Positions 18,992-58,853 of a stretch of 64,000 nucleotides of DNA are shown one piece after another; within the stretch, counting starts at the first letter, position 1, and the number at the start of each line of letters is the position of its first letter. Source of the stretch: Rhizobium etli 8C-3. Its GTDB lineage: Bacteria > Pseudomonadota > Alphaproteobacteria > Rhizobiales > Rhizobiaceae. The translations under genes and the position numbers were made by a program. The notes beneath the pieces are model-generated. The model made no database searches, was not told the origin of the DNA, and saw only the letters and a list, made by a program, of their open reading frames with translations. The DNA lies in the NCBI RefSeq assembly GCF_001908375.1, contig NZ_CP017244.1:1674001-1738000 (forward strand), in the 5' to 3' direction.

Positions 18992-18998
18992 GCTGAGC

Positions 18999-43482: not shown

Positions 43483-44796
43483 ATGTCCAACAGCATTATA
43501 AAGCCCCAAAAGGGCATTTCCAGACGTTCGGTCTTGCAGGGAATGGGTGCTGCCGCCGGTACGGGCCTGGCCCTGCAGGCGATGCCCGGCTTCGTCCGCT
43601 ACAGTCAGGCGGCCACGTCGGAGCCGGTGAAGATCGGCCTCCAGCTCCACCGTACCGGCATCGGCGCCTCCTACGGGCGCTGGTACGAGCGCGTGACGGC
43701 TGCCGCCGTGAAGGTCATCAATGACGGCGGCGGCATCAACGGTCGGCCGGTCGAGGTCATCGTCGAGGATGACGGCACCGATCCCAAGCGCGGCGCCGAA
43801 GTCGTTGAGAAATTCGCGACGCAGCACAAGGTCGACGTGGCCTACGGCACGCTCTTTTCGCATGTGGTCATCGGATCTGCGCCGCGCGCCGGCGAACTGA
43901 AGCTGCCCTACGTCGTCGTCTCGGAGGGCCATCACGTGGCCTCCGGCAAGCTCAATCGCTATGTCTTCCAGCCGGGCATTACCGATGTACGTTCGCAGGT
44001 CATCGCAATGGCGCCGTGGATTTCCAAGAATCTCGGCAAGAAGGTCACAATGATCTTCCCTGACTTTGCCTTCGGCCACGATCACCGCGATTATTTCTCC
44101 GAGGCGATCAAGGCGCAGGGCGGCCAGGTCGCGGGGCTCATCGCCATCCCTCCGACTGAATCCTCCTTCACCCGCTATCTGCCGCAGATCTCCTCCGATA
44201 CCGAAGTGCTCTACCACGTCATGGTCGGCCCGGCTGTGCTCACCTTCGTCAAGGAGCTCGGTCAATTCTTCGGCTCCAGCCGGCCGCAGATCTTCGGCTT
44301 CATCGACAGCCTTGAGGCGGTTGACCTTGCGACGCCGCAGCTCGAATTCCTGGAAGACACTTATTTCTGGGAAGGCAACCCGCGCTACGCCCAGAAGGAC
44401 CAGACAGAGTACGACAAATTCTACCGCGAGATGGTTGGCGTGGATGCCAATGGCGCCAGCACCTCGGATCAAAAGGACATCTCGACCTATTCCCACATGT
44501 TCGGCTGCTGGGAGTCGCTCTTTGCCATCAAGCAGGCGATGGAAGCCAGCGGCTATGAGGGCCAGACGCCTAAGGACAAGCAGGGCTTCATCGAGGCTAT
44601 GGAGGCGATCCAGAAGTTCGATGAGGGCCGCGAACATCCGCAGGGTGACAAGATCTTCAACGGCAAGAACCACCAGTGCTACGGTCACCAGAACATTTCC
44701 AAGGTGACCGGCGGGCGCCTTGAAGTCGTCCACAGGACGGCGATCGAGGACGGTCTTTACGAGGTTAGTGCCGACTACACGACAATGTCCCTCTAG
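43483..44796 (+). CDS. Branched-chain-type periplasmic binding protein (Tat-like leader)
   Basis: A 437-residue binding protein (Peripla_BP_6, LivK/UrtA-like). The leader has a twin-arginine motif (SRRSVLQGMGAAAG), so it may be exported folded by Tat. The domain includes VKIGLQLHRTGIGASYGRWYERVTAAAVKVIND, GGINGRPVEVIVEDDGTDPKRGAEVVEKF, and SEGHHVASGKLNRYVFQPG. It captures the substrate of the importer encoded downstream. Operator F lies 60 bp upstream. The substrate is probably an aromatic or heterocyclic acid, judged from the neighbours. Confidence 0.88.
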   Translation: MSNSIIKPQKGISRRSVLQGMGAAAGTGLALQAMPGFVRYSQAATSEPVKIGLQLHRTGIGASYGRWYERVTAAAVKVINDGGGINGRPVEVIVEDDGTDPKRGAEVVEKFATQHKVDVAYGTLFSHVVIGSAPRAGELKLPYVVVSEGHHVASGKLNRYVFQPGITDVRSQVIAMAPWISKNLGKKVTMIFPDFAFGHDHRDYFSEAIKAQGGQVAGLIAIPPTESSFTRYLPQISSDTEVLYHVMVGPAVLTFVKELGQFFGSSRPQIFGFIDSLEAVDLATPQLEFLEDTYFWEGNPRYAQKDQTEYDKFYREMVGVDANGASTSDQKDISTYSHMFGCWESLFAIKQAMEASGYEGQTPKDKQGFIEAMEAIQKFDEGREHPQGDKIFNGKNHQCYGHQNISKVTGGRLEVVHRTAIEDGLYEVSADYTTMSL

Positions 44797-44973: not shown

Positions 44974-45855
44974 GTGGATCTCGGCCCTTTTTTGCTGCTG
45001 GCAACACTCGAAGGCCTGCTACAGGCGGCGGTGCTGACGCTGACGGCTCTCGGCTTGAGCCTGGTTTTCGGCGTCATGCGCATCGTCAACGTCGCGCATG
45101 GCGAATTCTACATGCTGGGCGCAGTCATTGCCTGGTGGACTGCATCGCTGTTGTCGTCCAATCCGGCTGCGGGTTTCTTTCTGGCGCTGGTTATCAGTCC
45201 GCTTTTGGTGGGCGCAATCGCCTATGCCTGCGAGCGGCTGATCCTGAAGCGCCTGGAATATGATCCGGAAGCGACCATCGTGGCCACCATCGGCATGCTC
45301 TATGTCATTCAGCAGACAGTGCTGATCGCCTACGGCCCGGATGCCCACCCGGTCGAGGCGCCCTTCTTCTTCCGCGTCCAGTTTCCGTGGTTCGGCTATT
45401 CCGGCTACAATCTCTTTGTCATAGCCGCCGCGATCGCGCTGCTCGGCCTCTGCTGGTACATCCTTACGAAAACGCGGCTTGGCCTCATCATGCGGGCGAC
45501 CCAGTTCGATCGCGAAACGGCGCAAGCCTTCGGGATCCCGATCGGCAAGGTCTACGGCTATGTCTTCGCCGCCGGCGCCATGCTCGCGGCGATCGCGGCG
45601 GTGCTGATCGTGCCGATCCGGCAGGCGCATTACCTGATGGGACTCGATCCTTTGCTGCTTTCCTTCATCGTCGTCATCATCGGCGGCCTCGGGAGCCTGC
45701 GCGGTACGGTCATCGCCGCGCTGATCATCGGCCTCAGTGACGGCATCATCTCCGTCTTCTTCTCACCGACGCTCGCCAAGATGATCTCGACGCTGCTGGT
45801 CGCGCTCGTTCTCGTCTTCAAACCCCAGGGCCTTTTCGGAGCGAGGGCACGATGA
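44974..45855 (+). CDS. Branched-chain-type ABC transporter permease (LivH)
   Basis: A 293-residue permease with about eight membrane segments. Family marks include GLSLVFGVMRIVNVAHGEFYMLGA, MRATQFDRETAQAFGIPIGKVYGYVFAAGAMLAAIA and FIVVIIGGLGSLRGTVIAALIIG. GTG start at 44974 with AGAGGAT upstream. A 177-bp structured gap after the binding-protein gene probably holds mRNA hairpins that favour binding-protein expression. It overlaps LivM by 4 bp. Confidence 0.92.
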   Translation: MDLGPFLLLATLEGLLQAAVLTLTALGLSLVFGVMRIVNVAHGEFYMLGAVIAWWTASLLSSNPAAGFFLALVISPLLVGAIAYACERLILKRLEYDPEATIVATIGMLYVIQQTVLIAYGPDAHPVEAPFFFRVQFPWFGYSGYNLFVIAAAIALLGLCWYILTKTRLGLIMRATQFDRETAQAFGIPIGKVYGYVFAAGAMLAAIAAVLIVPIRQAHYLMGLDPLLLSFIVVIIGGLGSLRGTVIAALIIGLSDGIISVFFSPTLAKMISTLLVALVLVFKPQGLFGARAR

Positions 45856-46814
45856 CCGCACCGAGCTTCACCAAGGCCGCCGGGCTCCACCTCCTCGTCA
45901 TCATGTCGCTGTTCGTTCTGCAGTTCGTCCTGCCGGCTTACCACCACCTGGCAATCACCCGCATAATGGTGCTCGCAGTCTTTGCCATGGGCTATAACCT
46001 GCTCTTCGGCTATGCTGGGCTGCTCAGCCTCGGTCATGCGCTGTTCTTCGCTGCCGGGCTCTACGGTGCGGGGCTCACGGCCTATCACCTGGGATGGAGC
46101 GTACCGGCGGCATTTGTTGCCGGCACTGGCTCGGGCTTCCTCGCATCGCTGCTGATCGGGCTGATCTCGTTGAGAACAAGCGGCGTCGCCTTCATGATCG
46201 TAACCATGATGTTTGCGCAGGTCTCCTATCTCGCAAGCCTTTATTTTACCACCTACACCCGCGGCGACGAGGGTCTGGTGATGCCGCAAGCAGCCCGCCG
46301 CTTCGAGCTTTTCGGCGCAAACTTCGATCTCACCGATCCGACCGTCCGTTACAATATCGCGCTGGCGCTGCTGACGCTGACGACCGTCGTCATCTTCGCC
46401 ATTGTTCGCGGAACGACCGGCCGCACACTGGTCGCGATCCGCGAAAACGAGCCGCGCACGCTGATGCTCGGCTACGACACCTTCCGGATCAAGCTGAAGG
46501 CGCTGGTGATCTCCGGCACGCTCTCTGCGATGGCAGGCTCGGCCTATGCACTACTGTTTGCCTATGTCGGCTCGTCCTTCGCCTCGATCCAATATTCGAT
46601 CGACGCGCTGCTCTTCACCCTGCTCGGCGGCGCAGGCACGGTTCTCGGACCGCTGCTCGGCACCTTCGCCATGTTCTACATGATCGATATCGCCAGCGAA
46701 TACACCGCCGCCTACCTGCTGATAACCGGTCTGGCGCTCATCGCACTCGTGCTGTTCTTCCCGAAGGGCATTGTCGGGACCATCCGCGAAAGGTGGGTAT
46801 CATGGCTGCCGTGA
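45852..46814 (+). CDS. Branched-chain-type ABC transporter permease (LivM)
   Basis: A 320-residue permease with nine to ten membrane segments. YNLLFGYAGLLSLGHALFFAAGLYGAG, RTSGVAFMIVTMMFAQVSYLASL and SGTLSAMAGSAYALLFAYVG are family features. The EENEPRTLMLGYDTFRIKLKAL-type coupling loop contacts the ATPases. It starts in an ATGA overlap with LivH and overlaps LivG by 13 bp, so the operon is tightly coupled. Confidence 0.92.
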   Translation: MTAPSFTKAAGLHLLVIMSLFVLQFVLPAYHHLAITRIMVLAVFAMGYNLLFGYAGLLSLGHALFFAAGLYGAGLTAYHLGWSVPAAFVAGTGSGFLASLLIGLISLRTSGVAFMIVTMMFAQVSYLASLYFTTYTRGDEGLVMPQAARRFELFGANFDLTDPTVRYNIALALLTLTTVVIFAIVRGTTGRTLVAIRENEPRTLMLGYDTFRIKLKALVISGTLSAMAGSAYALLFAYVGSSFASIQYSIDALLFTLLGGAGTVLGPLLGTFAMFYMIDIASEYTAAYLLITGLALIALVLFFPKGIVGTIRERWVSWLP

Positions 46815-47545
46815 CGCTACTCAGTACCAGGGGCCTGTGTCGCAATTTCGGTGGGCTGAAAGCGGTCCAGAATGTCGATTTCGAGCTGGAAGCCGGCGAG
46901 ATCCGCGCGATCATCGGTCCGAACGGCGCCGGCAAGACGACCTTCGTCTCGCTGCTCTCCGGCCGCATTGCCCCGAGCAAAGGCAGTGTTGAATTCCTCG
47001 GCCGCGACATCACGCGCGAGCCTGCCTTCAAGCGCGTGCGCCAGGGTATTGCCTATACGTTTCAGATCACCAGCGTCTACTCGAAACTCAGTGCTTACGA
47101 AAACGTCGCGCTCTCCGCCCAGAGCGCACTCAGCCGCGCGAAAGAGCCGTTCGGGCGGCTACACAGCGAACAGATTGCCGAGCGGGTCGATTTCGCGCTG
47201 CGGCGCGTCGGACTGCAGGATCGTGCAGCCGCCAGGGCCGGCGAACTTTCCTACGGCCATCAACGGCTCCTGGAGGTCGCCATGGGCCTTGCCCTCGAGC
47301 CGAAACTGCTGATACTCGACGAGCCTACCCAAGGACTCTCCGACGGCGAGATCGAAAATTTCTGCGCCCTCGTCCGCGAGATCGCCGAAACTGCGACGAT
47401 CCTCCTGATCGAGCACAACATGCCCGTCGTCATGCAGCTTGCCGATACGATCACCGTGTTCAACGCCGGCGAGATCCTCGCCAGCGGCACCCCGGAAGTC
47501 ATCCGTGCCAATCCCGCCGTGCAGGCGGCCTATCTGGGATCCTGA
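46802..47545 (+). CDS. Branched-chain-type ABC transporter ATPase (LivG)
   Basis: A 247-residue ABC ATPase. Walker A is GPNGAGKTT (about residue 40), Walker B is LLILDEPTQGLS, and the signature is LSYGHQRLLEVAMGL, the LSYG variant typical of LivG. It ends YLGS, as LivG proteins do. It works with LivF and the two permeases. The start at 46802 lies inside the LivM end. Confidence 0.93.
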   Translation: MAAVTLLSTRGLCRNFGGLKAVQNVDFELEAGEIRAIIGPNGAGKTTFVSLLSGRIAPSKGSVEFLGRDITREPAFKRVRQGIAYTFQITSVYSKLSAYENVALSAQSALSRAKEPFGRLHSEQIAERVDFALRRVGLQDRAAARAGELSYGHQRLLEVAMGLALEPKLLILDEPTQGLSDGEIENFCALVREIAETATILLIEHNMPVVMQLADTITVFNAGEILASGTPEVIRANPAVQAAYLGS

Positions 47546-47548
47546 CCC

Positions 47549-48247
47549 ATGCTGACTGTTACCGGGCTGAACGTCTATCACGGCACCAGCCAGACGCTGA
47601 AGGATTTCTCGATATCGGTCGGTGCCGGCGAGGTGCTCTGCCTGCTCGGCCGCAATGGCGCTGGCAAGACGACCGCTCTGAAGGCGATCATGGGCCTCCT
47701 GCCGGCGCGTTCCGGCAGCATCAGCCTTGCCGGAACGGAACTGACCGCCCTTCCCGCGCATGAAGTGCCAAGGCACGGCATCGGTTACGTGCCGCAGGGC
47801 CGGCGGCTGTTTTCGGAGCTTACCGTGCGGGATAATCTGGAGATCGGGCTGATGACGCGTAACACCTCGCGCGATATTCTCGAACAGGCACTGACCCTTT
47901 TTCCCCGCTTGCGCGAGCGGCTCAACCAGGTCTCCGGAACGCTTTCTGGTGGCGAGCAGCAGATGCTGGCCACCGCACGCGCCCTTTGCATCGATCCGTC
48001 TGTGATCATGCTTGACGAGCCGACCGAGGGGTTGATGCCCTCGATGATCGCCGCCATCCGCGATGTGGTCCTCAGACTGCGCGACCAGGGCAAGGCGATC
48101 CTGCTGGTCGAGCAGCGCGTCGATGCCGTGCTGTCGGTCGCCGATCGCGTGTCCTTCGTGGAAAACGGCCGTGTTCAGGCGACGGTTCCGGTCGATGAAC
48201 TTCGCGGTAACCCGCATCTGCTCGACAGATATGTCGGGATCGCATGA
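47549..48247 (+). CDS. Branched-chain-type ABC transporter ATPase (LivF)
   Basis: A 232-residue ABC ATPase opening MLTVTGLNVYHGTSQTLKDF. Walker A is GRNGAGKTT, signature LSGGEQQMLATARAL, Walker B VIMLDEPTEGLMP, all LivF style. RRLFSELTVRDNLEIGL is the Q-loop region. It is the last gene of the five-gene importer operon and faces the marR gene tail to tail, 2 bp apart. Confidence 0.93.
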   Translation: MLTVTGLNVYHGTSQTLKDFSISVGAGEVLCLLGRNGAGKTTALKAIMGLLPARSGSISLAGTELTALPAHEVPRHGIGYVPQGRRLFSELTVRDNLEIGLMTRNTSRDILEQALTLFPRLRERLNQVSGTLSGGEQQMLATARALCIDPSVIMLDEPTEGLMPSMIAAIRDVVLRLRDQGKAILLVEQRVDAVLSVADRVSFVENGRVQATVPVDELRGNPHLLDRYVGIA

Positions 48248-48249
48248 CC

Positions 48250-48729
48250 TCAGCAGATCTTGCGCAACAGCTCGAGCAGCATCAGCCGCTCGCCCGCCGT
48301 AAGCGGGCTCAGCGTCTTTTCCGAAACCGTAAGTGCTGCGACGACATTGTGCGAGATCGCTTCGAGCCCGTCTCCGGTCAGCGACAGGACGAGCCGGCGC
48401 GCGTCGTTGCTGTCCGGCAGGGTGCTGACGAAGCCACGCTTGACCAGCCTGTCGACAACTCCCTTGATGGTCGCCGCGTCCATCGCCGTTTCCCGGCCAA
48501 GCCTGTTTTGCGAGCAAGGCTGGATTTCCTTGAGCTTGGTCAGCGCCGCCCATTGCGTCGTCGTCAGCTTGTCGTTGATAAGGCTCGCGAAGATCGCCAC
48601 GTGGCGCTGGTTCGCCTGGCGGAGAAAAAAACCGATCTGTTCGTGCAGCACGTAGTCGCGCGGCGCCTCTTGTGCAATCGACGCTGCTTTCTTCTCGCTC
48701 TTCTCCGCCACGGCTCGGTCTTCTCGCAT
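48250..48729 (-). CDS. MarR family regulator of the heterocycle cluster
   Basis: A 159-residue winged-helix MarR protein. Features are the N-terminal dimerisation helix (HEQIGFFLRQANQRHVAIFASLIND), the recognition region (LTTTQWAALTKLKEIQPCSQNRLGRETAMDAATIKGVVDRLVKRGFVSTLPDSNDARRLVLSLT-type) with the wing DSNDARRLVLSL, and a C-terminal helix. The ATG at 48729 is used; the frame opens at a TTG inside its own operator. Operator B lies 14 bp before the start, so it autoregulates. It sits between the importer and catabolic operons. It is probably a repressor released by a pathway substrate. Confidence 0.9.
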   Translation of the reverse strand: MREDRAVAEKSEKKAASIAQEAPRDYVLHEQIGFFLRQANQRHVAIFASLINDKLTTTQWAALTKLKEIQPCSQNRLGRETAMDAATIKGVVDRLVKRGFVSTLPDSNDARRLVLSLTGDGLEAISHNVVAALTVSEKTLSPLTAGERLMLLELLRKIC

Positions 48730-48742
48730 TTTCTCTTGAATT

Positions 48743-48760
48743 TTGCCTGTATACAAATGA
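48743..48760 (+). promoter_or_regulatory. MarR-type operator B, marR promoter
   Basis: TTGCCTGTATACAAATGA has the core GTATACAAAT seen at operator A. It ends 14 bp upstream of the marR start codon, in position for autorepression. Confidence 0.7.
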
Positions 48761-48994
48761 ACTACGGACAAGGTTCGATGCGATTGACCGCCTCGTCGGC
48801 ACCTGATCTTCCGCGCTTCGCCGAATTGCCCGTTTAGACTTTATGCGACAACGTGGTGACAAAGGAAAGCCCCATCGGAAAGTCCGCTGCAACTGAGGGC
48901 GTAAATCATTGTAGTAACGCCCATATTCGTCCCGCCAAGCTCGCGGGCACCACCTCAAAAGCGCGCTTGACAGCGTGGGGATGTCATCCGATAC

Positions 48995-49027: not shown

Positions 49028-49879
49028 ATGCGCTATTACACTCCGCGGAGCTGCGAGGAGGCCGTCGCGATTCTCGCATCCGGCCCGCATGACGTACTGG
49101 CCGGCGGCACCGATTATTACCCTGCCCTTCGCGATCGCCCGGCGACGCGCGACCTGATCGATATTTCCCGTATTGACGAGCTTCGCACGATCCGAAGGCA
49201 AGGCGACGGCTGGCGCCTCGGTGCGGCCACCACCTGGAGCGATGTGGCACGCACAAACCTTCCCCCGCTCTTCCATGGCCTGCAGGCTGCTGCGCGCGAA
49301 GTGGGTGCGCTGCAGGTTCAAAACGCTGGTACGATCGCCGGCAATATCTGCAACGCTTCGCCGGCCGCCGACGGCGTGCCACCGCTTTTGACACTCGACG
49401 CCGAGGTCGAAATTGCCTCATGCGAGGGGCGCCGCACTGTTCCATTGTCTGCCTTCATAACGGGCGTTCGCAGGACTGTTTTGCGCCCTGGCGAACTGGT
49501 GACTGCGATCCTCGTGCCGCACCGGGATGCCGCTTCCGCCTTCCTGAAGCTCGGTGCCCGCAGATATTTGGTGATCTCCATCGCCATGGTTGCCGTTCTG
49601 CTCGAAGCCGACGGCTCGGGCCGCGTCGCGCAGGCGAGAATCGCTGTCGGTGCCTGCTCTGCGGTCGCCCGCCGCATAGAGGCATTGGAGAGCGAGCTTG
49701 CGGGCCAGCCGATGAACGGCGAGATCCTGGCGTCTGTCGTGGAACTTCGCCACCTTTGCCTCCTTTCGCCGATCGACGACGTGCGCGCCGATCGCGCCTA
49801 TCGGCTCGAAGCCGCAGCAGAGCTGATCCGCCGCGCCTTGCGCGCAGCGCTTGCGACAGCCGGGGAGCGTGCGGCATGA
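49028..49879 (+). CDS. Molybdenum hydroxylase FAD-binding subunit (CoxM/XdhB-like)
   Basis: A 283-residue flavoprotein of the CO dehydrogenase flavoprotein family. The FAD contacts are DVLAGGTDYYPAL (usually GGTDLLPLMK-like) near residue 23 and VQNAGTIAGNICNASPAADGVPPLL around residue 98. It passes electrons from the Mo/Fe-S subunit. The start at 49028 follows GGGAACAG and lies 15 bp after operator A. It overlaps the large-subunit gene by 4 bp (ATGA), so both parts are made together. Confidence 0.9.
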   Translation: MRYYTPRSCEEAVAILASGPHDVLAGGTDYYPALRDRPATRDLIDISRIDELRTIRRQGDGWRLGAATTWSDVARTNLPPLFHGLQAAAREVGALQVQNAGTIAGNICNASPAADGVPPLLTLDAEVEIASCEGRRTVPLSAFITGVRRTVLRPGELVTAILVPHRDAASAFLKLGARRYLVISIAMVAVLLEADGSGRVAQARIAVGACSAVARRIEALESELAGQPMNGEILASVVELRHLCLLSPIDDVRADRAYRLEAAAELIRRALRAALATAGERAA

Positions 49880-52665
49880 ACCAGATCGCTGAAGCCAAGA
49901 TCGCAGCGGATGCCTTTGCCGTTAATTTCACCCTCGACGGCGAAGCTGTCGCTGCCCATGTGCATCCCGCGCGCCGGCTTTGCGAAACGCTGCGCGAGGA
50001 ATTCGGCTGCAAGGACGTCAAGGTCGGCTGCAACGCCGGCGACTGCGGCGCCTGCACCATACTCCTCGACGGCGAGCCCGTCTGCTCATGCACCACAGCA
50101 TCAGCGCAGGCCAATGGCCGCGCGGTCGAGACGCTGCGCGGGCTTGTGGACACCGACGCGGTTGCAAAAGGTCTCGCCGAAGCCTTCCAGCGGCACGGCG
50201 CCGCCCAGTGCGGCATCTGCACGCCGGGCGTGATCGTTACGGCAACCGCGCTGCTGCGTTCCCGTACGCCGCTGGACGAGACCGTCGTTCAAGATGCGCT
50301 TGGCGGCGTGCTGTGCCGATGCACAGGTTACCGCAAGATCATCGACGCGATCCTCGATGCCGGCGGCGCGCTCGAAAAACCCAAGACGCTAACCGAGGGC
50401 GGCGTCGGCGCGGCCATTGCCCGCATCGACGGGCTTGCAAAGGTCACGGGTCGCGAGGCCTTCGGCGATGACGTTGCGCCCGATGATGCGCTGGCACTTC
50501 GCGTCATCCGCTCGCCTTATGCGCATGCGGCTTTCGCCTTCGGCGATCTTAAGGCCTGGCGCGCGGCCCATCCCGGCGTCGAGCTGGTGCTGACGGCCAA
50601 GGACATTCCCGGCAAGAACTGCTTCGGCGTCATCCCGCCCTTTGCCGACCAGCCAGTCTTTGCCGAGAGTGTCGCGCGCTTCCGGGGCGAGGCGGTCGCG
50701 GCCGTCGTCGGTGAGGCGAATGCGATTGCCGCACTCGACCTCGATCGTTTCCCGATTGCCTGGGAAGAGCGCAAGCCGGCAATGACTGTCGCAGAAGCGC
50801 TTTTACCCGACGCAGCCGTCCTCCACGGGAACCGCGCGGGTAACGTGATGTGCGGCGGTTTCGTCCAGCGCGGAGATGTCGAAGCCGGATTCGCCGCCGC
50901 CGACATCGTCGTCGAGGGTGATTTTTCAACCGGTTTCGTCGAGCACGCCTATATCGAGCCAGAAGCCGGCTATGCTATGCGCACCGGCAATCGGCTGGAA
51001 ATCTATGGCTGCACGCAGGCACCGTTCATGGACCGCGACAGCATGGCCGAGATCATGGGGCTGTCGCCCGAGGACGTGCGCGTGGTGCCTTCAGCCTGCG
51101 GCGGTGGCTTCGGCTCCAAGCTTGATCTTTCCATACAGCCCTATATCGGTCTTGCCGCCTGGCTCACCAACCGGCCGGCGCGCATGGCCTATTCGCGCAC
51201 CGAATCCATGCAGTCCACCACAAAGCGCCACCCCAGCGAGATCACGATCCGCATCGGTGCGACGCAAGACGGAAAGATCACTGCCCTTGAGTTCAACGGC
51301 GATTTCAACACCGGCGCCTATGCCTCCTGGGGGCCGACGGTCGCCAATCGCGTGCCGGTACACGCCTCCGGCCCCTACTTCATCGAGAACTATCGCGCGC
51401 GGAGCAGAGCGATTCACACGCACTGTCCGCCATCCGGCGCCTTCCGCGGATTCGGCGTGCCGCAGGCGGCAGTGGCACAGGAGTCCATGCTCGACGAACT
51501 GGCGCTGAAGCTTGGCATGGACCGCCTGGAACTGCGTCAGCTAAACGCGCTCGACAACGGGCAGCCGACGGTAACGGGCCAGATCTTCGACAAGGGCGTG
51601 GGCATCAGCGCCTGTCTGGAGGCGCTACGACCGGCCTGGGATCGCGCCTGCGCGCAAGCAAAGGCTCTCAACGCCGAAGCCGCGCGCTCCGGCAGCCCGC
51701 TGCGCTGGGGCACCGGCATCGCGTCCGGCTGGTACGGCTGCGGCAACACCTCGCTGCCCAACCCCTCGATCATCAAGGCCGGCATTCGCGCCGATGGCAC
51801 CGTCGTCCTGCACCAGGGCGCAACCGATATCGGCCAGGGTTCGAACACCGTCATCGCCCAGATTTTCGCAACCGCGCTCGGCGTGCCCGTCTCTGCGTGC
51901 AGGCTCGTCGGCCCGGATACCGACCTGACGCCCGATGCCGGCAAAACCTCCGCCTCCCGCCAGACCTATGTTTCCGGCAATGCCGCCAGGCTTTGTGGCG
52001 AAGCGCTGAGAAAGCAGATCCTGCGGCTCGGCAATGTCTCCGACGATGCCGAGATTAAGATCGGCGACGGCGTCGTGCGCCTCGTCGACGGCGAGGTGCG
52101 CCGCACGGTTCATCTTGGAGAAGCCCTGCCTGCCAACACGGACGGCTATGTCCTCATGGCCGAGGAAAGTTACGATCCGCCGACAAGACCGCTCGACGAG
52201 AACGGCCAGGGCCATCCCTACGCGGTCTTCGGCTATGCCGCCCAACTCGTCGAACTCAGTGTCGACATGGCGCTCGGCACCGTCAAGCTGCGGAAGTTCA
52301 CCGCAGCCCATGACGTCGGCAAGGCGATCAACCCGCTGCTGATCGAGGGGCAGATCCAGGGCGGCATCGCTCAGGGTGTAGGGTTTGCGCTGATGGAGGA
52401 ATTCGTTCCCGGACGTACCGAGAACCTGCACGATTACCTCATCCCGACCTTCGGCGACATTCCGCCCGTCGAGACCCTGATCGTAGAGGTCGAGGACGGC
52501 CATGGGCCCTATGGCGCCAAGGGGCTCGGGGAGCATGTGCTGATCCCGACCGCGCCGGCGATCCTCAACGCAATCCGCGATGCTGCGGGCGTGCGCCTCC
52601 ACCACCTGCCAGCGACGCCGGCGAAGGTGATGGCGGCGATCCGCGCCGTGATGATGAAGAACTGA
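49876..52665 (+). CDS. Molybdenum hydroxylase, fused 2Fe-2S and molybdopterin subunits
   Basis: A 929-residue protein in which the small Fe-S subunit (about residues 1-165) is fused to the large Mo subunit (about 175-929). The plant-type cluster is GCNAGDCGACTILLDGEPVCSC and the second is QCGICTPG with LCRCTGYRKI. The Mo part has GGGFGSK, SGAFRGFGVPQ, TDIGQGSNTVIAQIFA and near the end GAKGLGEHVLIPTAPAILNAI, containing the active-site Glu of GLGE. It hydroxylates an aromatic N-heterocycle or aldehyde next to nitrogen using water. Nicotinate to 6-hydroxynicotinate is the reaction best fitting the context. Substrate specificity is inferred. Confidence 0.88.
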   Translation: MNQIAEAKIAADAFAVNFTLDGEAVAAHVHPARRLCETLREEFGCKDVKVGCNAGDCGACTILLDGEPVCSCTTASAQANGRAVETLRGLVDTDAVAKGLAEAFQRHGAAQCGICTPGVIVTATALLRSRTPLDETVVQDALGGVLCRCTGYRKIIDAILDAGGALEKPKTLTEGGVGAAIARIDGLAKVTGREAFGDDVAPDDALALRVIRSPYAHAAFAFGDLKAWRAAHPGVELVLTAKDIPGKNCFGVIPPFADQPVFAESVARFRGEAVAAVVGEANAIAALDLDRFPIAWEERKPAMTVAEALLPDAAVLHGNRAGNVMCGGFVQRGDVEAGFAAADIVVEGDFSTGFVEHAYIEPEAGYAMRTGNRLEIYGCTQAPFMDRDSMAEIMGLSPEDVRVVPSACGGGFGSKLDLSIQPYIGLAAWLTNRPARMAYSRTESMQSTTKRHPSEITIRIGATQDGKITALEFNGDFNTGAYASWGPTVANRVPVHASGPYFIENYRARSRAIHTHCPPSGAFRGFGVPQAAVAQESMLDELALKLGMDRLELRQLNALDNGQPTVTGQIFDKGVGISACLEALRPAWDRACAQAKALNAEAARSGSPLRWGTGIASGWYGCGNTSLPNPSIIKAGIRADGTVVLHQGATDIGQGSNTVIAQIFATALGVPVSACRLVGPDTDLTPDAGKTSASRQTYVSGNAARLCGEALRKQILRLGNVSDDAEIKIGDGVVRLVDGEVRRTVHLGEALPANTDGYVLMAEESYDPPTRPLDENGQGHPYAVFGYAAQLVELSVDMALGTVKLRKFTAAHDVGKAINPLLIEGQIQGGIAQGVGFALMEEFVPGRTENLHDYLIPTFGDIPPVETLIVEVEDGHGPYGAKGLGEHVLIPTAPAILNAIRDAAGVRLHHLPATPAKVMAAIRAVMMKN

Positions 52666-52677
52666 CGGGAAGCCCCA

Positions 52678-54171
52678 ATGGTCAAACAAACGATCGAAAG
52701 CACCATAGACGGCAAGATCCGCTGCGATGCCTGCCCCGTGATGTGCTACATCTCAGAGGGCAGATCCGGCGCCTGCGACCGCTACGCCAATGTCGGCGGC
52801 GACCTCGTTCGCGTCGATCCCCTGACGATCATCGAGAGCCGGAAGGACAATGGCGGCCAGCTCGTTTCCTTCCTGCCGGGCGCCGAAGACAAGGAGTGGG
52901 ACGGCGATCTCGTTCAGGCGAAGCGCTCCTTCGTCACCGCCGTCGGCGCCGGCACCACCTACCCGGACTACAAGCCCGCCCCTTTCATCGTCTCGCAGCA
53001 GGAACGCGGCGTCGACATGGTGACGGTCGTGACCGAGGGCATCTTCAGCTATTGCGGCGCCAAGGTGAAGATCGACACCGACCGCTATCTCGGCCCTGAA
53101 ACCTCTGCCGTGCGCGTTGAAGGCGAGCCGGTTGGCCATGTCACGACCGGCGAATATGGCTCGCAGATGCTCTCCCTCGGCGGCGTCCATCATCTGACCG
53201 GCGGGACAAAGAAGGAGGGCCGCCTCACCTGCGACGCACTGATGCGGCTCTGCAATGGCGAGGCCGTGGAAATGACGATCGACGGCGGCGCGGAAATCGT
53301 CGTCAAGGCGGGTACGGCACCGATCATCAACGGTGTCGAGGAACAGCGAATGCGTGTCGGCTGCGGCTCGGCGACCATCGGCATGTTTGCCAAGCAATGG
53401 GCCCAGCACGTGGACGAGGTCGTGGTGGTCGACGACCACATCACAGGAGTTCTTTCCGAACACCAGGCGGGCCGCGTGCTGAACGTCCCGGCAACCGGCA
53501 TCAGGATCAAGGGCCGCCGTTCAACCCCGGGTCGCTATTTCCAGGTGGCAGAGCCGGGCACCGGCTGGGGCGGCACCAACATATCCGATCCGCTATCAAT
53601 CCTCGGCGCGTTCGACCCCAAGACCGCCTATCCCGGCCTGCGCCTTCTGATGGTCTCGACCACAGGCGAGCAATACGGCTATTACATTCTCGATGAAAAC
53701 CTCGTGCCCGCGCTCCAGACGAGCCTGCCGGAGGATATCCGCTTGTCGGTCGAGCAGATCGCCGAAAATTGCGAGCCGGCCGTCTGCTCGGTGCTGTTCA
53801 TGGGCGGCGCCGGAGGCAGCCTGCGCGCAGGGGTCACGCGCAATCCGGTGCAACTCACCCGCTCGGTCAAGGAGGCGCTGACCTACGTATCGTGCGGCGG
53901 CGCGCCGGCTTATGTCTGGCCCGGGGGCGGCATTACCGTAATGGCAGACGTGACGCAGATGCCGGCCAATTCCTTCGGCTACGTGCCGACCCCCGCACTC
54001 GTTGCGCCGATCGAATTCACCATGCGGCTTGACGACTACCGTAGGCTCGGCGGCCACATGGAAGCGGTCGTACCGATTGAGGAGGCGCTGAAGGTGGCAG
54101 AACGCAAGGTCGCGAAGCGCCAGGACGCTCCCTGGCCAACCGAAAGCCAGAACTTCAAGTGGCAGGCATGA
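52678..54171 (+). CDS. 6-hydroxynicotinate reductase-like Fe-S flavoenzyme
   Basis: A 497-residue protein of the family annotated as 6-hydroxynicotinate reductase, described first in the clostridial nicotinate fermentation. The N-terminus has a ferredoxin-like cluster site, C16-X2-C19-X3-C23-X9-C33 (IRCDACPVMCYISEGRSGAC). Later parts include GVDMVTVVTEGIFSYCGAKVKID, GGVHHLTGG, RVGCGSATIGMFA and SVLFMGGAGGSLRAGVTRNP. It should reduce the pyridine-type ring to the tetrahydro stage with reduced ferredoxin. It starts 12 bp after the Mo hydroxylase. The real substrate in this host is not proven. Confidence 0.82.
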   Translation: MVKQTIESTIDGKIRCDACPVMCYISEGRSGACDRYANVGGDLVRVDPLTIIESRKDNGGQLVSFLPGAEDKEWDGDLVQAKRSFVTAVGAGTTYPDYKPAPFIVSQQERGVDMVTVVTEGIFSYCGAKVKIDTDRYLGPETSAVRVEGEPVGHVTTGEYGSQMLSLGGVHHLTGGTKKEGRLTCDALMRLCNGEAVEMTIDGGAEIVVKAGTAPIINGVEEQRMRVGCGSATIGMFAKQWAQHVDEVVVVDDHITGVLSEHQAGRVLNVPATGIRIKGRRSTPGRYFQVAEPGTGWGGTNISDPLSILGAFDPKTAYPGLRLLMVSTTGEQYGYYILDENLVPALQTSLPEDIRLSVEQIAENCEPAVCSVLFMGGAGGSLRAGVTRNPVQLTRSVKEALTYVSCGGAPAYVWPGGGITVMADVTQMPANSFGYVPTPALVAPIEFTMRLDDYRRLGGHMEAVVPIEEALKVAERKVAKRQDAPWPTESQNFKWQA

Positions 54172-54187
54172 CACGGATAGCGACGGA

Positions 54188-55177
54188 GTGACGAGGTTGG
54201 GTCCTCAGGCGAGTTACTTGCCGGATCAGGACGGATCGGGTGGCAGGCTGCATCTGCAGCACGGCCCGATCGACCTCGTCATCGGCGCCGATGACGGTCC
54301 TCGCCTGCGCTGCGACGCGGCAGAAATGCGCGCCCGTGCCTTCGACGTCGCAAGGGCGAGGTTCGAAACGGTGCTCGAGGAGCTGATGTCGGAACTGCCG
54401 CTGCTTCGCGCCGAAGCGGATCCGGACATGTCCGATCCGCGCGGAAGCGTCGCCAGACGGATGGTCGCGGCAGTGAAGCCGCTTTCGCGATACCGCTTCA
54501 TCACCCCGATGGCAGCCGTTGCCGGCGCCGTCGCGGAGGAGACTCTCGAGTCAATGGTTGCCGCTTTTTCACCGGTCGAAAGACCGGCCCGGATCTACGT
54601 CAACAATGGCGGCGACATCGCGGTGCATCTCCACGGCGACGCCTCCTTCCGCGTCCGCATCGCGCGACTAGACAATGTTTCGCTTGGCCATTTCGAGCTG
54701 AAGGCGGCCTCGCAGAGCCGCGGTATCGCCACCAGCGGCAGGGGGGGCCGCAGCCTTTCGCTCGGCATTGCCGAATCCGTCACTGTCATCGCCCGCACCG
54801 CGGCAGAGGCCGATGCCGCCGCGACGCTCATCGCCAATGCCGTCGATCTCCCCGGCCATCCGGCAATCGAACGCGTCCGCGCCGTCGATGTCCGCGACGA
54901 CAGCGACCTCGGAACAAGGCTCGTAGTGCGCAATTGCGGCAGGCTGGCATCCAACGAGGTCGAGGAAGCCCTGTCACGCGGGGTCGCGGAAGCTGAACGT
55001 TTCATAGCGCTCGGTTTCATCGAAAGAGCCGCGCTTTTTCTTCAGGATCAGGGGCGCCTGGCAATGGCGTGCGATCAGGACTCCACCCGAACCACAATCA
55101 ACGCAACGGAGCACGTCAACCATGGCCGAACCAAAGATCAGGAAAATCCTTACAGCGGTGGAGGAAATTCGCCATGA
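54188..55177 (+). CDS. UPF0280 family protein (ApbE-like fold)
   Basis: A 329-residue protein of the UPF0280 family, related to ApbE FMN transferases. Family features are LHLQHGPIDLVIGADDGPR at the start, PMAAVAGAVAEETL and YVNNGGDIAVHLHG in the middle, and SRGIATSGRGGRSLSLGIAESVTVIARTAAEADAAATLIANAVD, which resembles the ApbE active region. GTG start at 54188, 16 bp after the reductase. A possible role is attaching flavin to the neighbouring reductase. The C-terminal 18 codons overlap the next gene. Confidence 0.83.
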   Translation: MTRLGPQASYLPDQDGSGGRLHLQHGPIDLVIGADDGPRLRCDAAEMRARAFDVARARFETVLEELMSELPLLRAEADPDMSDPRGSVARRMVAAVKPLSRYRFITPMAAVAGAVAEETLESMVAAFSPVERPARIYVNNGGDIAVHLHGDASFRVRIARLDNVSLGHFELKAASQSRGIATSGRGGRSLSLGIAESVTVIARTAAEADAAATLIANAVDLPGHPAIERVRAVDVRDDSDLGTRLVVRNCGRLASNEVEEALSRGVAEAERFIALGFIERAALFLQDQGRLAMACDQDSTRTTINATEHVNHGRTKDQENPYSGGGNSP

Positions 55178-55706
55178 AGGCGGCACGCCACCTGCAAAGC
55201 CGCTGAAGCGCGGCGCCGTTCTTGCGGTTATCGAAAATCCGTTCGCGGGCGCCTATCACGAGGATATTCAGGGCTTCATGAAGGATCTGGAGCCTCTCGG
55301 CCTCGACATGGCGAGGCGGCTGATAGAAGCGCTCGGTGGCGAAGCGGGTGCCATCGAGGGCTATGGCAAGGGCGCGATTGTCGGTCAGGCCGGCGAACTG
55401 GAGCATGGCGCCCTGTGGCATGTGCCGGGCGGCTATGCCATGCGCGAGGCATTGGGCAACGCCAAGGCGATCGTGCCGTCGACGAAGAAAGTCGGCGCCG
55501 CCGGCGCGCGCCTGGACGTTCCGGTAACCCATATCAACGCGTCCTATGTGCGCAGTCATTTCGACGCGATGGAGGTCGGCCTTGCCGACGCACCGCGCGC
55601 TAACGAGATCGTGCTCGCGCTGGTCATGACCACCGGCGGACGCATTCACGCCCGCCTCGGCGGACTGAAAGCAGAAGATGTCAAGGGAGAGGATGGACTG
55701 AGATGA
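55122..55706 (+). CDS. DUF1185 (AA_synth) protein, copy 1
   Basis: A 194-residue protein of the 'amino acid synthesis' family (Pfam AA_synth/DUF1185), whose reaction is unknown. Typical parts are RGAVLAVIENPFAGAYHEDIQGFM, EGYGKGAIVGQAGELEHGALWHVPGGYAMR, VPSTKKVGAAGARLDVPVTHINASYVRSHFDAMEVGLAD and GGRIHARLGGL. Starts inside the end of the UPF0280 gene with GGAG upstream and overlaps the second copy by 4 bp. It is about 45 % similar by eye to copy 2, so the two may form a heteromer. Confidence 0.87.
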   Translation: MAEPKIRKILTAVEEIRHEGGTPPAKPLKRGAVLAVIENPFAGAYHEDIQGFMKDLEPLGLDMARRLIEALGGEAGAIEGYGKGAIVGQAGELEHGALWHVPGGYAMREALGNAKAIVPSTKKVGAAGARLDVPVTHINASYVRSHFDAMEVGLADAPRANEIVLALVMTTGGRIHARLGGLKAEDVKGEDGLR

Positions 55707-56287
55707 AAGCCGAAATCCGCAAACTCGCCGTTTTTCTCGAGGAAACCCATTCTGAAATGGGCCGGACGGTTTCGCCGCCGACCCGCAAGGCGGCCGCGGT
55801 CGCGGTTATCCGCAACCCCTTTGCCGGACGCTATGTCGAAGACCTGACGCCGCTGATCGATATCGGCGCCGAACTCGGCGGCCTGCTGGGGGAAAAATGC
55901 GTTGCGGCACTGGGCATTGAGCCCTCCGAGGCGCAGAGCTACGGCAAGGCAGCCATGGTCGGCGAGAACGGCGAGCTGGAACATGCCGCCGCCTTGCTGC
56001 ATCCTGCCATGGGCAAGCCGCTTCGCGCCGCCGTGGAGAAAGGCGCCGCCCTGGTCCCGTCTTCGAAGAAGCGTGGAGGGCCCGGCCAGGCTCTCGACAT
56101 ACCCCTCGGCCACAAGGATGCAGCCTTCGTCCGCTCACACTTCGACGGCATGGAGGTAAGCCTCAATGATTCTCCGCGCGCCGACGAGATCATGGTCGCC
56201 GTTGCCGTAACAGACAGCGGAAGGCCTTTTGCCCGCATCGGCGGCCTGAAGGTGGACGAGATCGAAGGCAAGGACGGACTGCGCTAG
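55703..56287 (+). CDS. DUF1185 (AA_synth) protein, copy 2
   Basis: A 194-residue paralogue of the preceding gene and exactly the same length. It keeps the same blocks: AAVAVIRNPFAGRYVEDLTPLID, SYGKAAMVGENGELEHAAALLHPAMGKPLR, VPSSKKRGGPGQALDIPLGHKDAAFVRSHFDGMEVSLND and GGLKVDEIEGKDGLR. It starts in an ATGA overlap with copy 1. It is the last gene of the operon beginning at 49028. Because both copies sit with ring-cleavage genes, a role in hydrolysis or later steps of the ring-opened acid is more likely than amino-acid synthesis; this is inference. Confidence 0.87.
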   Translation: MKAEIRKLAVFLEETHSEMGRTVSPPTRKAAAVAVIRNPFAGRYVEDLTPLIDIGAELGGLLGEKCVAALGIEPSEAQSYGKAAMVGENGELEHAAALLHPAMGKPLRAAVEKGAALVPSSKKRGGPGQALDIPLGHKDAAFVRSHFDGMEVSLNDSPRADEIMVAVAVTDSGRPFARIGGLKVDEIEGKDGLR

Positions 56288-56587
56288 ATCACGATGGTTT
56301 TGGTTCAATCATGTGAACGATTCTAAAAGGTTAAGGTGTGGTGCGGGCGGACGTGCGCCCCCACGTTTCCTCCCCAAGGCCTCGACGCCGTGCGAAGCCT
56401 GGTCTGATCGCAACGTGCGGAGAAGCTGGTATGGGAGAGCGCCCGGGCTCAAGCGCCGGTTATGGACAAGATGCACGCATGCCTGACGACGCGACAATAT
56501 CGATGTCTTGTCACTTTTCATGATCCAGTCGGCAGGTCAAATCGCTACGGCAAGCTTAGCGCGCCTCAAAGCCGGACGGGTGCTGCG
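56288..56587. other. Spacer between convergent operons
   Basis: Three hundred bases between the convergent DUF1185 copy 2 and the amidohydrolase. No gene or strong terminator hairpin was seen. The left end (ATCACGATGGTTTTGG) looks like an intergenic repeat common in rhizobia, but I cannot confirm that here. Confidence 0.4.
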
Positions 56588-57805
56588 TCAGCCCCCATAC
56601 TGGGCATAGCGGCCGAAGACGATCTCCGGTACCGCCGTGGCCGGCGGCGTGTTGCGGCTTCGTTGCGTCCGGATCACGCCGTCGATGACTGTCATGCCGA
56701 TCCCGGGCAGGTTGCCGAGCTTCACGGACTCTAGGAGGGTCGCGCCTGGCGCATGCTGGGCCCGGTCCATAATGACGAAGTCGGCCGTCCTGCCGGGCTC
56801 GATGATGCCGCAGTCGAGATTGCGCTGGCGGGCCGTATTGCCGGTGGCAAAACAGAAGGCCACCTCCGCCGGCGTGTCGGAAAGGCTAGCGACCAGCGAC
56901 ACCATGCGCAGGATGCCGAGCGGCTGAACGCCAGAACCTGCTGGTCCATCGGTGCCGAGGATGACCTGATCGAGCTTCTTGAGTTCACGCGCCGTGTTGA
57001 CCGTCAGCAGCGCTGCACGCTCGTTGCCGTTGTGGACGATCTCAAGACCCCGCATGCAGCGCTCGCAGATGCAGACGATCTGGTCATCCGGCAGCGCCGT
57101 ATGCCCGCCGTTCAGATGGCCGACCACATCGGTGTCCGCCTCCAGCACCACATCCTTGTCGATCAGGCCCGAGCCGGGAATCGAAGGGCCACCGGTGTGG
57201 ATTGTGCTCTGGATGCCGTATTTGCGCGCCCAGGCCACCATCTGCTTGGCATTGGCCGCGTCCTTGACGCCGCCAAGACCGACCTCGCCAAGCAGCTTGA
57301 CGCCGGCCTCCGCCAGATCCTTGAAATCCTGCTCGACCATGCCCGTCTCGATGACTGGCGCACCGGCATGGACCTTGACCCCCGAGGGGCGGAAATTTTC
57401 GTAGAACCGCTGCGAGGCAATCGCATGCGCTTTGAGGCCGACGATGTCGCGCGGACGGCCGGGTGCATGCACTTCGCCAGCCGAGATCATCGTCGTCACG
57501 CCGCCGTTGAGCGTCGAGTCGATCCAGTTCAGCTGCTGCTGGCGCGGTGTATAGTCGCCGATTACCGGATGCACGTGGCTGTCGATGAGCCCCGGGGCGA
57601 CCGTCGTCGCCCTGGCGTCGACGACCGTCTTGGCGCCTTCCGTGTCGATGTCCTTCTCATAACCTACGGCGGTGATAATTCCGTCGTCGCAAACGATGCA
57701 GTCGCCGTCGAGGATCGGCTGCTCGATTTTACCGGAAAGAATCAGGCCGATATTCTTGATGACCAGCCTGCCAGCCTTTTCGTTTCCGCCCGCTACATCA
57801 GCCAT
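56588..57805 (-). CDS. Enamidase-like amidohydrolase
   Basis: A 405-residue metal-dependent amidohydrolase. The metal-binding HxH is DSHVHPVIGDY, with further ligands in QSTIHTGG, VVGHLNGGHTA and the Asp of LGTDGPAGSG. The C-terminal half ends with RTADFVIMDRAQ. Closest in overall layout to enamidase of nicotinate fermentation, which opens 1,4,5,6-tetrahydro-6-oxonicotinate to 2-formylglutarate and ammonia. The start at 57805 follows AGGGGAAGGGG; a longer open frame to 57967 runs through operators and is rejected. It has operator E 71 bp upstream and is divergent from the reductase. Confidence 0.82.
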   Translation of the reverse strand: MADVAGGNEKAGRLVIKNIGLILSGKIEQPILDGDCIVCDDGIITAVGYEKDIDTEGAKTVVDARATTVAPGLIDSHVHPVIGDYTPRQQQLNWIDSTLNGGVTTMISAGEVHAPGRPRDIVGLKAHAIASQRFYENFRPSGVKVHAGAPVIETGMVEQDFKDLAEAGVKLLGEVGLGGVKDAANAKQMVAWARKYGIQSTIHTGGPSIPGSGLIDKDVVLEADTDVVGHLNGGHTALPDDQIVCICERCMRGLEIVHNGNERAALLTVNTARELKKLDQVILGTDGPAGSGVQPLGILRMVSLVASLSDTPAEVAFCFATGNTARQRNLDCGIIEPGRTADFVIMDRAQHAPGATLLESVKLGNLPGIGMTVIDGVIRTQRSRNTPPATAVPEIVFGRYAQYGG

Positions 57806-57876
57806 ATTCGTCCCCTTCCCCTGTTTGTTGCACGCCGGATCCGGGCGAAATTTATCTGCGGCACGGTTCGGCGATC

Positions 57877-57894
57877 CAATTTGCACACGAATGC
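57877..57894 (-). promoter_or_regulatory. MarR-type operator E, amidohydrolase promoter
   Basis: GCATTCGTGTGCAAATTG (minus strand) shares ATTCGT and GCAAAT with the consensus. It lies 71 bp upstream of the amidohydrolase start. Confidence 0.6.
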
Positions 57895-57963
57895 TAACTT
57901 TGCCGGAAATTTCTGTCGAGCCCAAATCCTTTATTGACAAAAGCGCGGTTTGGGATTTCCATT

Positions 57964-57981
57964 TCATTCGTACACAAACAA
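57964..57981 (+). promoter_or_regulatory. MarR-type operator C, ferredoxin reductase promoter
   Basis: TCATTCGTACACAAACAA differs from operator A at only a few positions. It ends 29 bp upstream of the ferredoxin reductase start at 58011. With operator E it frames the divergent promoter region. Confidence 0.65.
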
Positions 57982-58010
57982 ATTATCGCCGATGGAACGG
58001 GAAAACGGGG

Positions 58011-58853
58011 ATGACCACGCAATCGAGCGGCAAAACCGGTGCAGGAGAGACGCACGACGCCGATTGGCCGAAGTCTCCAGCCCCGGCAGACGTCTTTGCG
58101 CAGACCGTGACGGCAGTAAAGCACTACACCGACCGGCTGTTCCATTTCCGCATCACCAGGCCCGCAAGCTTTCGCTTCCGCTCCGGCGAATTCGTCATGA
58201 TCGGCCTGCCGAATGCGCCAAAGCCGGTGTTTCGCGCATATTCGATGGCCAGCCCCTCGTGGGACGAGGAGATCGAATTCCTTTCGATCAAGGTGCGGGG
58301 CGGGCCGTTCACCGAACACCTGCAGAAGATCGTTCCCGGGGACACGGTGCTGATGCGCAAGAAACCGACCGGCACGCTGGTGCTCGATGCCCTGCTGCCG
58401 GGCAAGCGGCTCTACCTCTTTTCGACCGGAACCGGCGTGGCGCCATTCGCGAGCCTTATCCGCGATCCGGAAATCTATGAGAAATTCGAGGAAGTGATCC
58501 TCGTGCAGACCTGCCGAGAAGTCGCCGAGCTCACCTACATCACCGAACTGGTAGACGGACTTAAGCACGATCCGCTGGTTGGCGAAACAGCAAGCGAAAA
58601 ACTACGCCTCCACACGACGACGACACGCGAAGCCTTCCCGCGTATGGGCCGCGTCACCGATCTCATCCGCAGCGGAGCCTTCTTTAGCGAAACCGGGTTG
58701 CCGCTCTTCGATCCGACGCAGGACCGCGCCATGATCTGCGGCTCGATGCAGATGCTGAAGGACAGCAAGACGGTTCTTGAATCCTTCGGCCTCGTCGAAG
58801 GTAGCAACCACGCGCCGGCCACTTATGTCGTCGAACGGGCATTCGTCGGTTGA
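58011..58853 (+). CDS. Ferredoxin--NADP+ reductase
   Basis: A 280-residue FNR of the bacterial Fpr type with an N-terminal extension of about 25 residues. The FAD site is VFRAYSMASPSWDEEIEFLSIKV, the NADP site is LYLFSTGTGVAPFASLIRDPEIYE and VILVQTCREVAELTY, and the end is YVVERAFVG. It interconverts NADPH and reduced ferredoxin. Divergent from the amidohydrolase and carrying operator C, it probably supplies reduced ferredoxin for the 6-hydroxynicotinate-reductase-like enzyme. No ferredoxin gene was found in the cluster. Confidence 0.92.
   Translation: MTTQSSGKTGAGETHDADWPKSPAPADVFAQTVTAVKHYTDRLFHFRITRPASFRFRSGEFVMIGLPNAPKPVFRAYSMASPSWDEEIEFLSIKVRGGPFTEHLQKIVPGDTVLMRKKPTGTLVLDALLPGKRLYLFSTGTGVAPFASLIRDPEIYEKFEEVILVQTCREVAELTYITELVDGLKHDPLVGETASEKLRLHTTTTREAFPRMGRVTDLIRSGAFFSETGLPLFDPTQDRAMICGSMQMLKDSKTVLESFGLVEGSNHAPATYVVERAFVG

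Follow-up and report, generated by a model that had tools for sequence, protein, structure and literature searches.

A predicted reductive nicotinate cluster in Rhizobium etli 8C-3 and the genes that accompany its 6-hydroxynicotinate reductase relative

Gene content and predicted pathway

The window analysed here (the whole stretch of 64,000 nucleotides from contig NZ_CP017244.1 of Rhizobium etli 8C-3, whose genome is 7.3 Mb) was found to carry a cluster of genes predicted to degrade nicotinate, which includes a relative of 6-hydroxynicotinate reductase (Hnr). Six genes form a plus-strand operon (49028-56287) in which neighbouring genes overlap or are separated by 20 nt or less. The first two encode a molybdenum (Mo) hydroxylase, namely a flavin adenine dinucleotide (FAD) subunit (49028..49879; PF00941, 1.7e-45) and a fused 2Fe-2S/molybdopterin subunit (49876..52665; PF02738, PF20256, and PF01799, with MoCoBD_1 at 8.5e-76). 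These are followed by Hnr (52678..54171, 497 aa), which was identified by the names of its relatives, and by a UPF0280/COG2122 protein (54188..55177) matching NF003322 with 359.7 bits, over the curated cut-off of 290. The operon ends with two DUF1185 genes, copy a (55122..55706; PF06684, 2e-72, 242.7 bits against a gathering cut-off of 27; solved relative 3BYQ, 1.1e-58) and copy b (55703..56287; PF06684, 9.4e-74, 247.1 bits against the same cut-off). An enamidase gene of the amidohydrolase family (56588..57805, minus strand) is transcribed towards the operon and away from a gene for a ferredoxin-NADP reductase of the Fpr type (58011..58853, plus strand; NF008178, 1.6e-34, 119 bits, which does not reach the equivalog cut-off of 390).

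Upstream of the operon, an importer of the branched-chain type is encoded on the plus strand (43483-48247). It comprises a substrate-binding protein (Peripla_BP_6, 43483..44796; PF13458, 1.3e-49), two permeases (44974..45855 and 45852..46814; PF02653, 1.7e-38 and 4.1e-37) and two ATPases, the first at 46802..47545 (PF00005, 8.9e-32, and PF12399; it lies within a longer open reading frame, 46094-47545, and its start was taken from the translation) and the second at 47549..48247 (PF00005, 4.2e-32). A MarR-family regulator (48250..48771, minus strand; PF01047, 4.3e-11) stands between importer and operon. An earlier note on this DNA had placed a Mo hydroxylase, an Hnr-like enzyme, an enamidase-like enzyme and a ferredoxin-NADP reductase together, and all four are present; the branched-chain type of its importer was likewise borne out, although the importer genes lie outside the interval 49028..58853 that it gave. 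The same arrangement is found in Rhizobium sp. 007, which is closely related, with 90–99% protein identity for window-derived queries (the regulator there, probed only with a Neorhizobium query, shows 72%), and a homologue of the regulator lies upstream of Hnr in ten further loci (L003-L009, L011, L084, and L086).

The assignment of the cluster to a reductive nicotinate pathway is well supported by orthology and gene company. The FAD subunit matches the corresponding subunit of Eubacterium barkeri nicotinate dehydrogenase (3HRD_C, 1.6e-29) and the fused subunit matches the other three chains (3HRD_A, 9.6e-83; 3HRD_B, 7.9e-66; 3HRD_D, 6e-34). Residues 13-394 of the enamidase align with residues 3-384 of the E. 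barkeri enzyme 2VUN (382 residues, 4.1e-106). Among the best 120 protein relatives of Hnr listed, those with a specific name (72–87% identity) are called 6-hydroxynicotinate reductase, while many are unnamed or "hypothetical protein".

Nicotinate would be taken up by the importer and converted to 6-hydroxynicotinate by the hydroxylase, as orthology and gene company suggest. Hnr would then form 1,4,5,6-tetrahydro-6-oxonicotinate with electrons passing from NADPH through the Fpr-type reductase to ferredoxin, the enamidase would release ammonia and 2-formylglutarate, and DUF1185, acting as a decarboxylase or tautomerase, might lead the latter by way of glutarate semialdehyde to glutarate. Taken as a whole, it is probable that the cluster serves nicotinate catabolism by the reductive E. 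barkeri/Azorhizobium route, with UPF0280 as an accessory of Hnr or its pathway and DUF1185 acting on 2-formylglutarate. The sequence of intermediates as far as 2-formylglutarate had already been proposed in the earlier note and agrees with orthology and gene company.

This pathway reading appears correct but is not new, since the same route is given in two published sources (PMC3511419; PMC9304392, which names 2-formylglutarate as the enamidase product). The suggestion of an undescribed variant is therefore not supported, as the cluster type has been described and reported as conserved in Azorhizobium caulinodans, Bradyrhizobium japonicum, Rhodopseudomonas palustris and strain SG-6C, where the importer and two unknown conserved proteins belong to it in several Bradyrhizobiaceae and Azorhizobium (PMC3511419). 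According to the same source, the 6-hydroxynicotinate reductases of E. barkeri and SG-6C are 42% identical, tetrahydro-oxonicotinate is metabolised via glutarate in Azorhizobium, and the cluster type occurs in a strain for which degradation of 6-chloronicotinate via the nicotinic acid pathway has been reported. The window shares with these proteobacterial clusters the reductase, the genes for the first three steps, an ATP-binding cassette importer and the conserved unknowns. However, the Bradyrhizobium loci surveyed here have a hydroxylase of the NicAB type and another importer and gene order, in contrast to the FAD subunit and fused iron-sulfur (FeS)/Mo subunit of the window (A. caulinodans is known here from PMC3511419 only). 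E. barkeri and the window have in common an enamidase matched over near full length, a hydroxylase matching all four 3HRD chains, and the Hnr family. They differ in the later fermentation genes, which were not observed next to the cluster of the window; none of the E. barkeri-type genes leading from 2-formylglutarate to propionate and pyruvate was recognised in general family searches of the open reading frames at ~41-63 kb, the part of the genome that was searched. Three points were met in no paper searched, namely the tie between UPF0280 and Hnr, the exchange of ring-opening enzymes and the context of DUF1185 in two kinds of cluster.

UPF0280 and its association with Hnr

The distribution of these genes was surveyed in related loci (the best 80 of 465 Hnr matches in a contig scan) and in two genome samples, namely 398 Pseudomonadota genomes, with Hnr called at E <= 1e-5, and 150 genomes of the order, in which 7 of the 36 genomes with Hnr are shared with the first sample. 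As the genomes are related, the co-occurrence counts are not independent trials, and Fisher tests, which ignore kinship, were not relied on.

Hnr was detected in 32 of the 398 Pseudomonadota genomes, and a match to NF003322 over the cut-off was found in exactly the same 32, which represent 16 genera. The gap between the two genes is 12-552 nt in every one of them. Two further genomes of this sample gave weak NF003322 matches below the cut-off. In the order sample, UPF0280 over the cut-off was present in 35 of 36 genomes with Hnr and in none of the other 114; the contig carrying Hnr in the exception (G502) stops ~140 nt past the Hnr match, and one genome (G459) gave a weak match under the cut-off.

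The synteny survey of the reductase family that the earlier note had called for found UPF0280 in 77 and DUF1185 in 75 of the 80 related loci, from which it follows that the grouping of these genes is not due to chance. These two families are thus not additions particular to this genome, as had been supposed. UPF0280 immediately follows Hnr in 73 of the 77 loci and lies 4-9 kb upstream in the other four, while its absence from three loci (L023, L024, and L039) may be explained by absent upstream sequence or a 3-kb contig.

Two genomes of the order sample (G456 and G517) speak against a tie to Hnr in particular, since UPF0280 is there unlinked from Hnr and adjoins the hydroxylase and a DUF1185 pair, with both Hnr and UPF0280 retained. 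They indicate that UPF0280 depends on the pathway without singling out Hnr; its position beside Hnr in loci with the other hydroxylase type, however, points to Hnr as the partner. A role for UPF0280 as a dedicated accessory of Hnr or its pathway is very probable, the genomic dependence being observed directly and the biochemical role proposed from it. Among the papers listed in the literature searched, in which few subscription journals were covered, none linked UPF0280 to Hnr, nor was UPF0280 found there alongside nicotinate or flavinylation. As a separate observation, the four stretches concerned in these two genomes (L199-L202) have Hnr apart from UPF0280, the hydroxylase and DUF1185, and Hnr of G456 is near the importer and a more distant pair resembling a Mo hydroxylase.

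Maturation of Hnr would be the most likely role of UPF0280. For Hnr, no Pfam or NCBIfam profile matched and no solved relative was found at E <= 10 with a profile of 59 sequences (57 of the 101 recovered from the loci, chosen for diversity, with the window sequence and one search protein). Cysteines 16, 19, 23, 33, 185, 229, and 365 are present in all 59 aligned sequences and Cys126 in 58. Homology of Hnr to DUF39/COG1900, the other partners of COG2122, was considered and rejected, as hmmscan to E <= 1 gave no sign of it; PF01837 was found in none of the 398 Pseudomonadota genomes. A supposed Hnr-UPF0280 fusion, a relative of 654 aa, turned out to consist of Hnr with an internal repeat and is probably an assembly artefact. 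In one locus (L158, G016:C1:2969811-2971258) Hnr lies in two overlapping frames, reflecting a frameshift or a sequencing error.

By profile comparison, UPF0280 is best placed as a remote member of the ApbE superfamily. A UPF0280 profile of 71 sequences (63 of the 95 recovered from the loci, chosen for diversity, plus the window and seven search proteins) aligned with 12 ApbE proteins from the surveyed genomes with an hhalign probability of 91.6% and an E-value of 8e-7, and a single UPF0280 sequence (L089) matched PF02424 at 0.002, under the curated cut-off. The aligned motifs are GG, the serine of ATSG and the aspartate of ADxxxT, which are shared with ApbE flavin transferases. The leading candidate reaction would be covalent attachment of flavin to Hnr, which is put forward tentatively; E. 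barkeri Hnr is reported to contain covalently bound flavin together with FeS clusters. In favour of it, canonical ApbE over the cut-off is lacking in 12 of the 32 genomes with Hnr and was rejected on this ground as the flavinator of all Hnr, and ApbE is typically periplasmic and membrane-anchored (PMC12052999).

Several observations weigh against this proposal. The His-bearing segment of ApbE is absent from UPF0280, so that the full Ser-His-Asp set is not present; the spacing from the serine to the aspartate motif is 23 residues in all 54 UPF0280 sequences fitting the pattern (17 of 71 do not fit), compared with 39-43 in 8 of 12 ApbE proteins, and some histidine occurs between the motifs in 26 of the 54. 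The ApbE target motif D-x-x-[S/T]-G-A-[S/T] occurs in none of the 59 Hnr sequences. Canonical ApbE over the cut-off is present in the other 20 of the 32 genomes with Hnr, and cytosolic ApbEs exist (PMC12052999). The conserved active site of Vibrio ApbE comprises Ser241, His257, and Asp285 (PMC12052999), and the likeness of COG2122 to ApbE seems not to reach the flavin-binding region (PMC5764234).

That UPF0280 acts instead in FeS or persulfide maturation of Hnr, like the role proposed for COG2122 where it accompanies the DUF39/COG1900 homocysteine synthase of methanogens and Desulfovibrio, must be weighed against flavin attachment and seems doubtful. Persulfide chemistry for COG2122 has been mentioned as a suggestion of others (PMC5764234) and MA1715 has been called a sulfur trafficking protein (PMC12068725); both fit such a role, as do the missing ApbE catalytic His segment and the cysteine-rich nature of Hnr, in which seven cysteines are invariant and an eighth is missing from a single sequence. 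Nevertheless, the best-kept motifs of UPF0280 (NNGGD, GIATSG, and ADAAAT) coincide with those of ApbE, and the invariant columns of two UPF0280 alignments contain no cysteine.

A more specific form of the flavin proposal, in which UPF0280/COG2122 forms a second branch of flavin transferases, cytosolic and without the His, and flavinates Hnr at a non-canonical site, is unlikely. Were it true, the same chemistry might mature the COG1900/DUF39 sulfurtransferases which are partners of COG2122 in Desulfovibrio and methanogens. The role of COG2122 in the homocysteine synthesis of Desulfovibrio and archaea is unsettled, and its tie in proteobacteria to a single enzyme amenable to production and assay makes its function directly testable.

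Exchange of the hydroxylase and the ring-opening enzyme

The Mo hydroxylase type, the ring-opening enzyme and the importer vary among the relatives of the window, and the hydroxylase and ring opener flanking the Hnr step are interchangeable. The 80 loci were typed by identity (45% for the hydroxylases and enamidase, 50% for HyuA, and 35% for UPF0280). The FAD-type hydroxylase occurs with enamidase in 27 of them and NicAB with enamidase in 24, while NicAB is accompanied by HyuAB in eight. Of the remainder, 13 have the FAD type without a nearby opener, four NicAB without an opener, one enamidase without a hydroxylase, and three neither. In no locus were two hydroxylase types or two ring openers found together. 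A further 16 Hnr loci (from 14 enamidase-free genomes together with G123 and G194) included six in which HyuA shares a stretch with the FAD type (L151, L153, L156, L158, L159, and L160), and all four combinations of hydroxylase and ring opener therefore exist.

On the genome scale, enamidase (called at E <= 1e-20) was found in 18 of the 32 Pseudomonadota genomes with Hnr and HyuA (at least 60% identity) in 16, which together account for all 32; only G123 and G194 have both. The 60% limit was chosen after a gap had been seen, with 16 genomes at 60% or above and the remainder at 44% or below. By E-value, 18 of the 32 genomes have a HyuA match at E <= 1e-150, many of these matches being marked with one internal stop. 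The enamidase copies of G123 and G194 (61–63% identity) lie beside a DUF1185 pair on a contig other than that of Hnr. These stretches (G123:C11 and G194:C11), with a DUF1185 pair and an enamidase-like amidohydrolase, perhaps represent a further route of enamide hydrolysis in the two genomes.

A quick tree built from 101 Hnr sequences places the window as sister to a group of 11 Hyphomicrobiales loci with HyuAB, of which 10 have NicAB and one (L085) has no hydroxylase that could be found. The clusters of Rhizobium, Neorhizobium, and Pleomorphomonas in this sister clade (L084, L085, and L086) resemble the window in their Hnr-UPF0280-DUF1185 block and in an Hnr of 78–81% identity, but differ in having HyuAB in place of the enamidase and, in L084 and L086, a NicAB hydroxylase. 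When the ring opener, assigned for 82 rows, was mapped on the tree, five changes were counted, three of them forced by starred branches; the exact number is unsure because the tree has long branches, that of L158 above all.

It is predicted from these patterns that the ring is opened either by enamidase or by HyuAB. This exchange predicts that a partly reduced pyridine ring is opened at the expense of ATP and would be useful for the annotation of N-heterocycle degradation, including that of insecticide-derived 6-chloronicotinate. ATP-dependent lactam hydrolysis has been reported for the HyuAB enzyme family (PMC8453981; PMC11033972), and no paper with both enamidase and hydantoinase was found in the literature searched. 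It could be argued that HyuAB serves an unrelated step and that some other, unrecognised hydrolase opens the ring in the enamidase-free relatives. The HyuAB family, whose members hydrolyse lactams with the use of ATP, is broad and shows low similarity to carboxylases (PMC8453981), the L085 copies are annotated as acetophenone carboxylase, and six loci (L150, L152, L154, L155, L161, and L162) have HyuAB elsewhere in the genome and not near Hnr. Such an explanation is nonetheless improbable, given the complementary distribution of HyuA and enamidase over the 32 genomes, the position of hyuAB immediately after DUF1185 in L084 and L085, and the ATP-dependent hydrolysis of valerolactam (PMC11033972).

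The exchange of the hydroxylase also bears on the substrate, which the earlier note had thought might differ. The fused subunit scores best against an aldehyde oxidoreductase (1DGJ, 5e-124), above the nicotinate dehydrogenase chains, and importer and hydroxylase type differ among relatives, as might be expected if the substrate of the cluster were some other pyridine carboxylic acid or an azaarene and that of Hnr a different hydroxy-N-heterocycle. However, the same Hnr is accompanied by two hydroxylase types, one of which is annotated as NicAB nicotinate dehydrogenase (L084), and the enamidase matches the E. barkeri enzyme over nearly its whole length. Another substrate is therefore quite improbable, and no clear sign of one was seen, although the hydroxylase sequence alone is not decisive. 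It is least probable of all that the association of UPF0280 and DUF1185 is nothing more than operon hitch-hiking in one recently spread cluster of an already known type (PMC3511419), for although the genomes are related and the counts not independent, UPF0280 stays constant while hydroxylase, ring opener and importer are exchanged, is retained in the two genomes in which Hnr lies apart from it, and was found over the cut-off in no Hnr-free genome of either sample.

A VanA-like Rieske oxygenase gene was observed in or beside the Hnr cluster in 12 relatives (L088, at 18058-19125, L010, L019, L024, L034, L035, L037, L041, L043, L045, L056, and L078). Its product may remove the methyl group from a precursor such as trigonelline ahead of the reductive route.

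DUF1185 and neighbouring genes

DUF1185 was found in 59 of the 398 genomes, comprising 31 of the 32 with Hnr and 28 without. Its surroundings were examined in 18 of the 28 Hnr-free genomes and for the two enamidase-linked pairs mentioned above, with families named from group representatives. An aldehyde dehydrogenase lies near DUF1185 in 15 of the 18 Hnr-free loci, and 11 of the 18 combine a luciferase-like monooxygenase and an aldehyde dehydrogenase with an alpha/beta-hydrolase and/or a flavin reductase. The trigonelline (tgn) cluster has the same make-up of luciferase-like monooxygenase, aldehyde dehydrogenase, hydrolase and flavin reductase. Unlike the window, these tgn-type clusters possess such genes and have neither Hnr nor UPF0280 in the DUF1185 stretches L180-L197. 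They do have PF06684 proteins in common with it, and six residues of these agree: Lys83, Glu92, Glu94, His95, Arg174, and Arg178 are identical in 150 of 150 Hnr-linked sequences (including the two of the window) and in 15 of 15 others, a count which left out 7 of the 22 rows not linked to Hnr (from L178, L179, L182, L183, and L190). The equivalents of Glu92, His95, and Arg178 (there Glu90, His93, and Arg176) are located at a conserved cavity in the dimer interface (PMC2954203).

The oxidation of succinate semialdehyde by TgnE is stimulated by TgnF, which is homologous to the DUF1185 protein HcdD (PMC7913881). As a speculative hypothesis, DUF1185 could be a decarboxylase or tautomerase acting on 2-formyl-dicarboxylates, which would explain both the stimulation of TgnE and the glutarate route. 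Enamide hydrolysis in the tgn or nicotinate route would yield such a compound, namely 2-formylsuccinate or 2-formylglutarate. Against this stand the absence of DUF1185 from one genome with Hnr (G139), the five of 80 Hnr loci in which it was not found, two of them (L019 and L020) in spite of long flanks, and HcdD itself, for which no such effect was observable in the 7-hydroxycoumarin cluster (PMC7913881). A link of DUF1185 to trigonelline-type clusters through 2-formyl-dicarboxylates was not found in the same literature search, with its few subscription journals. With these associations UPF0280/COG2122 gains a genetic partner and DUF1185 a chemical context; both families were previously without an assigned reaction, which can now be tested directly.

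Beyond the cluster, the minus strand carries genes for a sigma-70-like factor bearing a SnoaL-type tail (59027-59944) and for a short-chain dehydrogenase (59941-60684); both look ordinary and unrelated. On the other side, a hydrophobic protein of 499 aa (41200..42699, minus strand) without a Pfam or NCBIfam match is encoded divergently from the importer. Homologues of this protein accompany the same importer type in Rhizobium sp. 007 (L087, 90% identity) and, at 37–55% identity, in 11 other loci (L004, L005, L009, L017, L018, L040, L065, L082, L084, L160, and L199).

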